DNA from: Clostridiales bacterium
GTDB taxonomy: Bacteria; Bacillota; Clostridia; Lachnospirales; JAQSXR01
Reading direction: 5' to 3'
Assembly: GCA_029256575.1 (NCBI GenBank)
Contig: JAQSXR010000026.1
Coordinates: 1-40,918, forward strand
DNA length: 40,918 nucleotides
How positions within the stretch are numbered: position 1 is the stretch's first letter; each line of letters opens with the position of its first letter. Under the pieces are notes generated by a model, which saw only the letters and a program-made list of their open reading frames with translations, was not told the origin of the DNA and made no database searches. The translations under genes were made by a program, and so were the position numbers. Shown in pieces: positions 21,668-34,828 of the stretch.

Positions 21668-21684
21668 TACTTAAATTTATATTA

Positions 21685-21975
21685 AAGGCATTGAAGAGAA
21701 GAGTAAACTATTTGCGTTTTTACAGAGACCTCAGGATGGTGAAATTGAGGAAAACTATATAATAGTTGAACATGGCCTCGGAGCTGCGTACCGAAAACAA
21801 TCTATGTTTAGGATACGACGGAAGCACCCGTTAAAGTGATAAACTATCGATGAATCATTTCTCGTTCGTAGTTGATAAGGTCTATATTGTGAGATATAGG
21901 TGAATTTAGGGTGGTAACACGAAGCGTCGCTCTCGTCCCTGAAAAAGAAATTTTTCAGAGAGGAGAGCTTTTTTA
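21685..21975 (+). promoter_or_regulatory. T-box riboswitch, methionine-specific
   Basis: T-box RNAs sense uncharged tRNA and prevent termination. Stem I has the AGAGA and ATGGTGAAA distal features (near 21724-21745). The specifier loop GTTGAACATGGCCTCGG places ATG at 21772-21774, i.e. Met. The T-box AGGGTGGTAACACG is at 21908-21921; its TGGT fits a tRNA with A73. The terminator follows: GCTCTC (21929-21934) with GAGAGC (21963-21968) and CTGAAAAA with TTTTTCAG, then six T. All parts look intact although the gene behind it is broken. Confidence 0.92.
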
Positions 21976-31305: not shown

Positions 31306-31457
31306 TTGCAATACAACCCTTCCGATTCCTGAGAAGGGTATTGTTTTAGGTGGACAGAACTGCTCTTAGAGAACAGGCACAAGATGTATTTGAGGAATCT
31401 CTTCTTTCAAATCTGTATTGATATTTTTTTATAGTGATAATATTAAAAACTTTCTAC
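31306..31457 (+). other. Spacer with a short duplicated fragment
   Basis: A small C/T and A/G hairpin-like segment follows the CHAP-like gene (CCTTCCGATTCCTGAGAAGG near 31318-31337, then TATTGTTTTAGG), a possible weak terminator. At 31390-31411 there are 22 bases identical to 30348-30369 in the methyltransferase-like gene; in the same frame they read EESLLSNL and then stop. It looks like a remnant of a paralogous gene. Confidence 0.45.
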
Positions 31458-31486
31458 TTGCATTTCCCCTTACCCCATGTTACACT
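31458..31486 (+). promoter_or_regulatory. Sigma-A promoter of the second two-permease ABC operon
   Basis: TTGCAT (31458-31463) and TACACT (31481-31486) with a 17-base spacer; the transcript starts near 31493, ahead of the leader peptide. Confidence 0.7.
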
Positions 31487-31531
31487 ACCAAGAAATCCAT
31501 TAAATGGAAAAGCCGAATAGGAGATAAAGAG

Positions 31532-31594
31532 ATGTTAAAGAATCGAATTTATACAATTAAGCTCATGCAGCACTACTTACATAAGAACTTGTAG
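31532..31594 (+). CDS. Leader peptide of the attenuator (20 aa)
   Basis: ATG at 31532 follows TAGGAGATAAAGAG with ideal spacing and encodes MLKNRIYTIK then LMQHYLHKNL, stop TAG at 31592-31594. The stop codon is the first base block of hairpin 1 in the attenuator, so a terminating ribosome would cover it. The peptide has no run of one amino acid, so it more likely senses ribosome stalling, for example by an antibiotic, than an amino-acid shortage. Inferred from layout. Confidence 0.7.
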   Translation: MLKNRIYTIKLMQHYLHKNL

Positions 31595-31708
31595 CTATAC
31601 TTGTACCCATAGCTATAAGTAACCTGTGTTTACTTTAAGCTATGCGGAATTCGGTTTTTACATCCTTACCGCATTGTATCTATCTATAGATTACAAGGCG
31701 GTTTTTTA
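31592..31708 (+). promoter_or_regulatory. Ribosome-mediated attenuator with four alternative hairpins
   Basis: Pairings seen: 1:2, TAGCTAT (31592-31598) with ATAGCTA (31609-31615). 2:3, ATAGCT and AAGTAA (31609-31622) with TTACTT and AGCTAT (31630-31643). 3:4, ATGCGG (31642-31647) with CCGCAT (31669-31674). 4:5, the terminator: ACCGC (31668-31672) with GCGGT (31698-31702) plus TTGTA/TACAA, then six T. Neighbouring stems exclude each other. With 1:2 formed, 3:4 blocks the terminator. A ribosome finishing the leader peptide covers 1, lets 2:3 form and frees 4:5 to terminate. Stalling early in the peptide should thus switch the ABC genes on. Confidence 0.75.
31668..31707 (+). terminator. Terminator hairpin of the attenuator
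   Basis: ACCGC...GCGGT closing stem with inner TTGTA/TACAA and CTAT/ATAG pairs, followed by T at 31702-31707. It lies 39 bases before the ATPase start. Confidence 0.85.
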
Positions 31709-31746
31709 TACTCTTTTTTAGACTTATTAGAAAGGGGAGGATAAAC

Positions 31747-32733
31747 ATGTATGCAATTGAAGTCAATGGATTATCAAAGAACTTCAAAGTAAAGATCAAA
31801 GAAAAAGGGTTTAAGGGAAGCTTGAAGTCAATCATTAAGCCTGAGTACAAGACAATAAGAGCGGTAGATAATATTAGTTTCGCGGTTGAAGAGGGGGAGA
31901 TACTCGCGTTTATTGGACCAAACGGTGCAGGAAAAAGTACAACAATTAAAATGTTAACAGGAATTCTATACCCGCAGAGTGGGGGTGTATCAGTTCTCGG
32001 GATAGACCCAACAAAGAAAAGAAAACAATTAGCGTATAACATTGGAACAGTTTTTGGACAAAAGGAACAATTATGGACACATCTAACCCCATACGATAAT
32101 TTTAAATTTTTTGGAGCAATTTATGACCTATCAGCGAAAGAAGTAGAATTTAGGATTGATGAACTAAGGACAACATTTGAACTTGATGAGTTTATTAATA
32201 TTCCAGTGAGGAATCTTTCGTTGGGCCAACGAATTCGCTGCGAGATAGTAGCATCATTAATACATAAACCCAAAGTACTGTTCTTAGATGAGCCAACGAT
32301 TGGTTTGGATCCAGTTGTAAAAGAAAATGTACGAAAACTAATTAAACAGATGAACAAAGAACTTAACACAACTATTTTTCTAACCAGCCATGATATCGGA
32401 GACATTGAGAAACTTTGCAAAAGAATAATTATTGTGAATCAAGGTCAAATTGTGTTGGACGATTCCATGGAGAACATTAAATATCATTATTTAAATAAAA
32501 AAATCGTAGAGATTAAGCTTAAGGAAGAAGTAGAATGGCCAGTCGAAGAAGGCATTACGATCATTAAGAGTAAAGGTTGCAATGCCAAGCTTGAAGTTGA
32601 TACAACAGTTAAGAAAATTAGTGATGCAATTAAGTGGATTGATGCTGACAATATAGAGGATATAACAATATCAAACGTTCCTTTGGAGAAAATTATCACA
32701 GAAATCTATAAGAATGTGGAGATGAGAACTTGA
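31747..32733 (+). CDS. ABC transporter ATPase of the two-permease exporter
   Basis: An intact 328-residue ATPase. Walker A GPNGAGKST (57-65), signature LSLGQRIR, Walker B VLFLDEPTIGLDP, switch LTSHDIGDIEKLC. A C-terminal domain of about 90 residues follows, as is usual for the class that pairs with DUF990/ABC2_membrane_6 permeases. It is the closest relative in the window of the frameshifted ATPase at 23870. SD GAAAGGGGAGGATAA. Its stop overlaps the first permease start. Probable drug or metabolite export. Confidence 0.92.
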   Translation: MYAIEVNGLSKNFKVKIKEKGFKGSLKSIIKPEYKTIRAVDNISFAVEEGEILAFIGPNGAGKSTTIKMLTGILYPQSGGVSVLGIDPTKKRKQLAYNIGTVFGQKEQLWTHLTPYDNFKFFGAIYDLSAKEVEFRIDELRTTFELDEFINIPVRNLSLGQRIRCEIVASLIHKPKVLFLDEPTIGLDPVVKENVRKLIKQMNKELNTTIFLTSHDIGDIEKLCKRIIIVNQGQIVLDDSMENIKYHYLNKKIVEIKLKEEVEWPVEEGITIIKSKGCNAKLEVDTTVKKISDAIKWIDADNIEDITISNVPLEKIITEIYKNVEMRT

Positions 32734-33521
32734 GAAAATATGCAGTTATTTATAAAGCAACCCTCATGGAAAATATGCAATATGCATTAAACATTGCACT
32801 TGGTTTCATCAGTTATTTTATGATGATATTTGTATTTATTAATTTATGGGACTATATTTACTCAGATTCAAGTCAATTAATTGCCGGATACAATAAAGAG
32901 CAGATGATATGGTATATTATTATTACTGAGATGATATGGTTCGGAACAAGAAGTGCAACGATTACGAGAGAAGTAGCAAATGATATAAAGAGTGGTCAAA
33001 TAGCCTACGGAATAAATAAGCCATACCATTACACCTTTTACATACTTGCGAAATATTTCGGAGAGATATCGATAAGACTTATTCTCTATATATCACTCGC
33101 AGTGATTGTAGGGGTAAGCTTTGTAGGTGGTCTATCCAATTTTAGAATACTATATCTACCTGCAATAATAGTAGTGTTAATTCTAGGTATTATAATAAAT
33201 GCAATACTAAAATTAAGCATCAGCCTTATTTCATTTTGGATAGAAGATTCAAACCCTTTTCAATGGTTGTACGATAAATTGATTCTGGTAATCGGTACGA
33301 TATTTCCTGTTGAGATATTCCCAAGGTGGGCCCAACCTATTATTCGTTGTACACCAATCTATGTAGTGGTATATGGTCCGGCTAAGCTTATTGTAGATTT
33401 TAGTATGGAGATGTTTTTTCGTGTTTTAGCAACTCAATTAATTTATTTAGGTATAGCTATCGTGATAATGCTGTTCTTGTATAAGAAGGGAGTGAAAAAA
33501 GTAAATGTTAATGGCGGCTAA
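32730..33521 (+). CDS. ABC-2-type permease, DUF990/ABC2_membrane_6-like, first partner
   Basis: A 263-residue permease with about six helices. The loop TREVANDIKSGQIAYGINKPY is the family's cytosolic signature, equivalent to that in 24841-25635. It starts with TTG at 32730, overlapping the ATPase stop by 4 bases after TGGAGATGAG. The N-terminal MRKYAVIYKATLMENMQYAL is amphipathic. The sequence is clearly paralogous to the permease of the first operon. Confidence 0.87.
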   Translation: MRKYAVIYKATLMENMQYALNIALGFISYFMMIFVFINLWDYIYSDSSQLIAGYNKEQMIWYIIITEMIWFGTRSATITREVANDIKSGQIAYGINKPYHYTFYILAKYFGEISIRLILYISLAVIVGVSFVGGLSNFRILYLPAIIVVLILGIIINAILKLSISLISFWIEDSNPFQWLYDKLILVIGTIFPVEIFPRWAQPIIRCTPIYVVVYGPAKLIVDFSMEMFFRVLATQLIYLGIAIVIMLFLYKKGVKKVNVNGG

Positions 33522-34299
33522 GAATCAGTTTAGAGTTTGTTTTCTATCAATTAAGTATAACATTATGCGAGAAATGATTAACAAAGTTACATTTCTTACA
33601 AATATTTTCTTCATGATGCTAAACAACGGAACCTTTATTGTTCAATGGTTACTTCTATTTCAAATAAAAGAGGATATCGGTGGTTATACACTTGACCAAG
33701 TTATGTTACTTTGGGGATTAGCGGCTTGTACCTACGGTTTATCGCATGTGCTATTTCAAAAAGCCTTTGAACTACCTGAATTAATCATTAACGGAAAACT
33801 AGACTCCTTCCTGGTTCAGCCTAAGAATGTATTACTTAGTGTAATAACCTCTGCAACCAACAGTTCTGCAATTGGCGATGTACTCTATGGATTTGTTATT
33901 ATGTGTGTATTTTCCTTCAGCTTTGGAAGGCTAGGACTATTTATTCTATTTAGCATAACAGGTGCAATCATTATAACTGCATTTTCTGTACTTGTAGGAA
34001 GTCTTTCGTTTTGGATTGTAAGAGGAGAGATGTTTGGGACAAATCTTACAAATATATTAATAAGCTTTGCCACATATCCCGATGGTATATTTAAAGGAGC
34101 AGTTAAATTTATATTATATATACTTATTCCGGTAGGAATGACGAATTATCTACCAGTACATATAATGACGAACTTCAACCCTTTATTTATGCTTACAGTT
34201 TTAGGATATATGGTTATGTTAGTAATAGTTGCGTTGTATGTTTTTTATAAAGGATTAAAAAGATATTCATCCAGTAGTTTGATGGTAGCGAGAATGTAA
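33505..34299 (+). CDS. ABC-2-type permease, DUF990/ABC2_membrane_6-like, second partner
   Basis: A 264-residue permease. The family loop reads ELPELIINGKLDSFLVQPKN; membrane segments are predicted near 28-50, 60-80, 105-130, 145-170, 195-215 and 230-252. The ATG at 33505 follows GAAGGGAGTGAAAAA and overlaps the previous gene by 17 bases. A second Met two codons later is possible. The C-terminus YKGLKRYSSSS is typical. It closes the operon. Confidence 0.87.
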   Translation: MLMAAKNQFRVCFLSIKYNIMREMINKVTFLTNIFFMMLNNGTFIVQWLLLFQIKEDIGGYTLDQVMLLWGLAACTYGLSHVLFQKAFELPELIINGKLDSFLVQPKNVLLSVITSATNSSAIGDVLYGFVIMCVFSFSFGRLGLFILFSITGAIIITAFSVLVGSLSFWIVRGEMFGTNLTNILISFATYPDGIFKGAVKFILYILIPVGMTNYLPVHIMTNFNPLFMLTVLGYMVMLVIVALYVFYKGLKRYSSSSLMVARM

Positions 34300-34312: not shown

Positions 34313-34341
34313 TTGTAAATATTTCCACAGTATATTATAAT
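34313..34341 (+). promoter_or_regulatory. Sigma-A promoter before the PUA/ASCH-like gene
   Basis: TTGTAA (34313-34318) and TATAAT (34336-34341) with a 17-base spacer, 34 bases before the start codon. Confidence 0.75.
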
Positions 34342-34375
34342 GGTATTATTTACTAGAAAAGAAGGAGATCTAATT

Positions 34376-34828
34376 ATGGTTCATTTGGTATATTGTGATG
34401 ATAAAGAAAAAGTACTGGAAAAAATATTAGAAGGCTCTAAAACTATGATAGTCCGTGGAGCAGCAGGTAGAAAGATACCGCACAGCCGAGTTAATGAGGG
34501 TGAAACACTATATTTTATGAAAAAGGGTACGGCAAAAATAACGGCAATGGCTACCGTAAAAAATGTACAAAATTATGTAAAACTAAGCGAAGAAGAGATA
34601 GTGAAAACGCTAGATGACAATCAAGGTAAACTTAATCTTACGAACAAGCAAAAAGAAAGATGGAACAAAAAATGTCTATGCTTAGTTGAATTTGAGAATC
34701 GAAAGCAAATCGAGCCTTTGGTTTTTGACCACCAGGGGAATATGGATGACTGGCTAATCATAGAAAAAATTGAAGATGTTGTAGTTGGGACCAGTATTCC
34801 GTACAATTATGAGAAATCAAGATTCTAA
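34376..34828 (+). CDS. Small protein, possibly PUA/ASCH-like
   Basis: The 150-residue protein is not firmly recognised. The segment ILEGSKTMIVRGAAGRKIPH followed by VNEGETLYFMKKGTAKITAM resembles the beta-barrel of ASCH/PUA-like domains, which bind RNA or modified bases. A helical insert (KLSEEEIVKTLDDNQGKLNL) and a charged middle follow. The start is ATG 34376 after AAGGAGATCTAATT; a longer frame from 34340 has no ribosome-binding site. It has its own promoter and converges on the minus-strand SDR gene. Confidence 0.7.
   Translation: MVHLVYCDDKEKVLEKILEGSKTMIVRGAAGRKIPHSRVNEGETLYFMKKGTAKITAMATVKNVQNYVKLSEEEIVKTLDDNQGKLNLTNKQKERWNKKCLCLVEFENRKQIEPLVFDHQGNMDDWLIIEKIEDVVVGTSIPYNYEKSRF

Follow-up and report, generated by a model that had tools for sequence, protein, structure and literature searches.

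A probable ribosome-mediated transcription attenuator tuned to early stalling upstream of a PF06182 ABC exporter operon

We analysed the leader of an ABC exporter operon in a stretch of 40,918 nucleotides from a Clostridiales bacterium (contig JAQSXR010000026.1, positions 1 to 40,918; termed the window). Very probably, this leader controls an exporter with a PF06182 permease by ribosome-mediated transcription attenuation and responds to an early stall of the ribosome on a short upstream reading frame. Its frame, its arms, its terminator and the covariation between them are read from the sequence and from comparison with relatives.

Layout of the leader and of the exporter operon

A first-pass annotation of the window had described a 20-codon frame with a good ribosome-binding site, which ends at the first arm of a chain of alternative stems (1:2, 2:3, 3:4) and a terminator (4:5). 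Frame and ribosome-binding site are indeed seen in the window (Table 1). An intrinsic terminator precedes the first gene of the operon, and an alternative pairing that excludes this terminator is present as well. Moreover, the early codons of the leader frame pair with the segment that immediately follows arm 3, which adds a sixth element to the five arms. We term the two partners arm 0 and segment 3b. The promoter is probable and was assigned by its position and by its likeness to that of the relatives, many of which carry a promoter-like TTGC..-17-TATACT with TG some 30-40 nt ahead of their leader ATG; an automatic promoter scan of the window ranked a different site, at 31406-31435, above it.

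Table 1. Positions of the leader elements and operon genes in the window, and of examples of a second RNA (R2) found before related exporters.
Feature	Position	Strand	Evidence or remark
Probable promoter, TTGCAT-17 nt-TACACT, extended -10 (TG upstream)	31458-31486	+	Sequence; position and likeness
Leader ribosome-binding site, AGGAG	31519-31523	+	Sequence; also in relatives
Leader frame, 20 codons and TAG, peptide MLKNRIYTIKLMQHYLHKNL	31532-31594	+	Sequence, relatives; ATG at 31532, TAG at 31592-31594, inside arm 1
Arm 0, within the leader frame; partner 31648-31664	31531-31549	+	Permutation, covariation
Arm 1 (CUUGUAGCUAU), overlaps the leader stop codon; partner arm 2	31588-31598	+	Duplex energy, permutation, compensation
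Arm 2; partner arm 1 or arm 3	31608-31619	+	Duplex energy, permutation
Arm 3, core AGCTATGCGG at 31638-31647; partner arm 2 or arm 4	31633-31647	+	
Segment 3b; partner arm 0; would hinder the antiterminator 3:4	31648-31664	+	
Arm 4; partner arm 3 (antiterminator) or arm 5 (terminator)	31668-31682	+	
Arm 5 (31686-31702) and T run to about 31707, 3' half of intrinsic terminator 4:5	31686-31707	+	
ABC ATPase (DrrA/NodI-like), first operon gene	31747-32733	+	PF00005, 7.8e-31
First permease, ABC-2 type by position; 4-nt overlap with the ATPase gene	32730-33521	+	
Second permease, ABC2_membrane_6	33505-34299	+	PF06182, 1.6e-30
R2 RNA examples	L081:2682-2762, L054:2531-2607, L108:2814-2886		

The operon combines a PF06182 permease with an ABC ATPase partner (PF00005), as is expected of an ABC2_membrane_6 exporter. 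PF06182 is a family which we take to be the former DUF990, and the match of the second permease bears out the earlier description of a DUF990-type exporter. The ATPase also matches the drrA model (8.2e-73, below the cut-off). For the first permease, Pfam gave no match and the DrrC model a weak one (3.7e-4). A 162-residue gene that follows the exporter (34340-34828) has neither a Pfam nor an NCBIfam match. Elsewhere in the window, a T-box leader (RF00230, 108.5 bits) is found at 21682-21943 and an S10-Clostridia ribosomal protein leader (RF03136) at 398-492.

The four duplexes in the window have energies of -12.9 (1:2), -11.3 (2:3), -10.5 (3:4) and -15.4 kcal/mol (4:5), and composition-shuffled arms were as good in 0, 4, 7 and 3 of 2000 trials, respectively. 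Taken as a whole, the leader folds more stably than its shuffled versions (z -3.7). When we searched for a strict chain of four helices with overlaps of at least 4 nt, 34 of 300 shuffled leaders were equally good. That the window is unexceptional in this search is due to helices 2:3 and 3:4, which share only three bases (AUG). The single window sequence alone would thus not prove the chain; it is the comparison with relatives, described below, that settles its existence at the level of sequence. The 34 shuffled leaders are also what speaks for a rival view, in which the upstream CHAP gene ends at an ordinary terminator here and the hairpins around it arose by chance. A terminator-like repeat of the CHAP gene's own, however, lies at about 31317-31346, and relatives with a different upstream sequence keep the arms and show compensatory changes in them. 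The comparison refutes this explanation, to which we give hardly any credence.

Conservation and covariation in relatives

As a comparison set we used 80 relatives of the ATPase with 70-80% identity. The same layout, with the stems and the terminator in the same order, is found in 32 of them, and in all 32 a frame of 17-30 codons with a ribosome-binding site has its stop at arm 1. Loss of the pairings or of the frame in homologous leaders had been named beforehand as grounds for rejection; the 32 relatives keep both. The conserved frame also bears on the idea that the leader senses a protein or a metabolite and that the short frame is incidental. Other relatives of the exporter do carry a structured RNA that works free of a ribosome (see below), but against the retention of frame, ribosome-binding site and stop in 32 of 32 leaders, and since Rfam offers no match, we consider this very unlikely. 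Searching Rfam 15 with the window leader gave no match at the gathering threshold and only sub-threshold chance matches, and no covariance model identifies it as a T-box or other leader of that collection.

The leaders, including that of the window, fall into two groups: eight with short peptides, the window leader among them, and 25 with longer peptides. The covariation check that had been proposed on homologous leaders revealed compensation in 1:2 and 4:5 and a partner-specific fit for 1:2, 2:3 and 4:5. In the window's group, true partners fit better than swapped ones: permutations with swapped arms did as well in 0 of 5000 cases for 1:2, in 1 of 5000 for 2:3 and in 10 of 5000 for 4:5. Among the 25 longer-peptide leaders, three pairs of 1:2 show compensatory changes, and in 4:5 four pairs are compensated (14 cells versus 6.8 in shuffled alignments). 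Helices 2:3 and 3:4 are conserved in this group. Helix 3:4 is nearly invariant, in the window's group as well, and what it offers is conservation without covariation.

The additional helix 0:3b is supported in both groups. In the window's group, 0 of 5000 swapped-arm permutations matched it. In the 25-leader group, where it lies at about codons 9-13, the two partners change together (TCGATTA/TAATCGG, CTGATTA/TAATCAG), 84.8% of the cells are paired, and the covariation score of 0.279 versus 0.184 (0 of 500 shuffles) is well above slid controls. The permutation by energy alone is weaker in this group (297 of 5000). A further pairing, 1':3', between the region of the stop codon and the segment after arm 3 was rejected, since its covariation was not above that of shuffles. 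In these alignments, the supported partner of the segment after arm 3 is arm 0.

The peptide itself is not conserved. Its pN/pS is about 0.95, no better than that of other frames, and a constraint at the codon level was discarded since synonymous and non-synonymous changes are about equal. Because codon constraint is not seen, we infer translation of the leader frame from its position.

We also looked for leaders outside the comparison set. When run on the genome that contains the window, a covariance model built from the 25-leader group only detects a single site, the window leader; the score of this leader, 30.1 bits, stems partly from the terminator, and terminators on the reverse strand reach 29 bits. 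A second site that DNA similarity suggested in this genome (L002) is part of a coding sequence, not a leader. Searches of plasmids and phages by DNA similarity, and of viral contigs with a conserved-core pattern, gave no match. Model R1, run over 392 genomes of the order, gave one plausible further leader, L114, while the other seven inspected sites were terminators at gene ends or had no leader. Over the class, R1 found no matches with filters so strict that they miss even the window leader. In L114 (1460-1670), a leader frame (MNQRYMYNYMEMMYRHICL), similar arms and a terminator lie 5' of a gene that by eye resembles a SAM-dependent methyltransferase (its first 70 residues gave no hit in Pfam) and is followed by a GNAT-like gene.

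Ribosome position, cause of the stall and known attenuators

We calculated the folding of each leader as a transcript that stops short of arm 5, blocking out the footprint of the ribosome; the footprint is a simple one, and the model omits pausing and pseudoknots. With the P site on codons 9-10, the probability of the antiterminator, P(3:4), has a mean of 0.8, and over the last codons and the stop it is at most 0.1 in most leaders. For the window, P(3:4) is 0.5-1.0 at codons 1-9 and drops to 0.0 at codon 10 and beyond. Thus, for the antiterminator to be favoured, the P site has to lie at about codons 1-9 in the window and 6-11 in most relatives. In four leaders (L036, L043, L053, L096), no antiterminator appears at any ribosome position in the calculation. 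In a subset of 16 native leaders, P(3:4) is 0.14 with no ribosome, 0.92 with a ribosome at codon 9 and 0.15 at the stop; shuffling the early leader codons changes these values to 0.47, 0.55 and 0.28. It is therefore 0:3b that would tie the leader to an early stall and not to a mere lack of translation. When the full-length RNA is folded at equilibrium, 4:5 is favoured in every ribosome state and the switch is not visible. The switch must therefore be kinetic, as is usual for attenuators. On the strength of these calculations, the choice between terminator and antiterminator would be set by the position of the ribosome.

In the mechanism that we propose, RNA polymerase would start at about 31493 and a ribosome would load on the leader frame. 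During normal translation, the ribosome that reaches the stop codon would cover arm 1 and free arm 0; 2:3 and 0:3b would then form, arm 3 would be occupied, and formation of 4:5 would end transcription. A ribosome that stalls early, on the first codons, would instead cover arm 0 and leave arm 1 free to form 1:2. With arm 3 and segment 3b both free, 3:4 would form before arm 5 is made, and polymerase would read through into the exporter genes. With no ribosome, 0:3b would prevent 3:4 in the window and the exporter would stay off. The prediction that stalling causes read-through and normal translation causes termination is thus supported, but it was incomplete: the stall has to be early and the extra helix is needed, since by the folding calculation the untranslated RNA would tend to read through without 0:3b.

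Could the leader instead gauge the general rate of translation, such that any slowing, be it by drugs acting on the 30S subunit or by poor initiation, gives read-through without a window for an early stall? Conservation at the amino-acid level is absent, which makes a specific arrest peptide unnecessary, and in several relatives P(3:4) is at least 0.7 without a ribosome. In the window and in many relatives, however, the covarying helix 0:3b holds the untranslated RNA off. We consider a gauge of this type improbable, and prefer an attenuator tuned to the early stall.

The first-pass annotation had noted that the peptide lacks an amino-acid run. We confirm this for the window and, in addition, find neither a run nor a single codon that is common to all leaders. 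Since there is no run and the peptide drifts freely, starvation for a single amino acid is an unlikely signal; the free drift also means that the leader can do without a dedicated arrest peptide. Slow translation for want of a charged tRNA, in which starvation and not a drug stalls the ribosome, could use the same RNA logic, and Ile, Leu and Phe are frequent in the first half of many leaders. Yet the FISIM/LIM codons of the 25-leader group are explained by the pairing of arm 0, and the operon encodes an exporter and no biosynthetic pathway. Together with the missing run and the missing shared codon, this leaves starvation a low probability. Stalls within the first ten codons are where drugs of the exit tunnel commonly act. 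The natural cause of an early stall may be a drug or toxin that acts on the 50S subunit, and the exporter may remove this compound.

The closest precedent is BmrB/BmrCD of Bacillus subtilis, an ABC exporter under ribosome-mediated transcription attenuation, which is induced by lincomycin, erythromycin and chloramphenicol, but not by kanamycin or gentamycin, and whose induction depends on translation of the BmrB leader (PMC4191407). Both systems have a translated leader, a terminator, an antiterminator, an anti-antiterminator and, as the target, a drug exporter or, in the window, its putative counterpart. They differ in the family of the exporter, which is heterodimeric in BmrCD and of the ABC-2 type here, and in the layout of the arms: three alternative stem-loops are described for BmrB, whose terminator lies inside a longer leader frame (PMC4191407), whereas here the frame ends at arm 1 and the terminator lies beyond it. 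Unlike in BmrB, the early codons of the window leader form an arm of their own. The first-pass annotation knew of no described case of such attenuation with a DUF990-type exporter. In the open papers, which are weak evidence on this point, we found no description of leader control of a PF06182 exporter, but control of an ABC exporter as such is already known from BmrCD.

Other systems share single features. In mef/mel (msrD), a drug-stalled ribosome on a short leader peptide likewise controls transcription attenuation of resistance genes, with a different peptide and with an MFS pump and an ABC-F factor as targets (PMC4335068, PMC10314930). The leaders of ermB and ermC also rely on an early stall in a short frame, and codon 10, at which ErmBL stalls, falls within the calculated window of most relatives (PMC8274638; ermC, PMC4191407). 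They act, however, by translation attenuation that frees a ribosome-binding site, whereas here a terminator is used and the site of the ATPase gene (31732-31738) lies 3' of it, outside the hairpins, and not in a hairpin as in erm- and cat-type leaders. Finally, the chain of alternative stems read by a leader ribosome resembles the trp-type attenuator of E. coli (general knowledge; PMC1183508). Unlike the trp and his types, the window leader has no codon run for a regulating amino acid, and with its one extra stem an early stall would read through by 1:2 and 3:4.

A second structured RNA before the same exporter

In 45 of the 80 relatives of the ATPase, a compact structured RNA (model R2) takes the place of the leader, and at no locus among the 80 are both found. 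Three relatives (L035, L051, L070) have neither; L070 comprises only 98 bases upstream, and in L051 a promoter-like sequence lies directly before the ATPase gene, as if an attenuator had been lost. The R2 RNA has the form GUGAG..P2..AGCU..GGG..CCUACACG..CGGAGUCAC and is often present in tandem (upstream regions of L032-L111, alignment A2). Its four helices have strong support: compensation is seen in 15 of their 19 pairs, both sides have changed in 157 cells versus 48.5 in shuffled alignments, and the covariation score is 0.596 versus 0.221. It has no match in Rfam 15. In many copies a terminator takes its 5' arm from the 3' strand of the closing helices, as in GUACGGAGUCA...UGACUCUGUAC-UUUUU. 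Because this strand is shared, the folded RNA would be an ON switch, which makes R2 a candidate riboswitch-like element.

Within the class, R2 was found in 24 of 391 genomes, where it precedes GNAT acetyltransferases, ABC and MFS exporters and an aminoacyl-tRNA synthetase of the Glu/Gln type (L121, L124, L127-L156), as well as a methyltransferase gene and a dCTP deaminase-like gene. In L150, two genes follow R2 in line, one for a GNAT protein and one for a related ABC ATPase. Judged from these neighbourhoods, the genes look like a defence set against small molecules.

The boldest reading of these observations is a leader that works as a position filter, in which its own first codons would act as the anti-antiterminator arm. 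Only a ribosome on about the first ten codons would open it, and an untranslated or a fully translated leader would keep the exporter operon closed. In evolution, such a filter would have been swapped with an uncatalogued structured RNA unrelated to it, suggesting that the two read the same chemical threat in different ways. We give this reading as a whole about even chances. The split between leader and R2 offers a route to the substrate of the exporter, since the trigger of either RNA is a candidate. With the leader described here, a family of ABC-2 exporters in Lachnospiraceae and their relatives joins those for which a stalled ribosome appears to be the trigger, and the position at which this ribosome must stall follows a rule that can be tested. 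Cells would thus produce the pump under an attack on translation.
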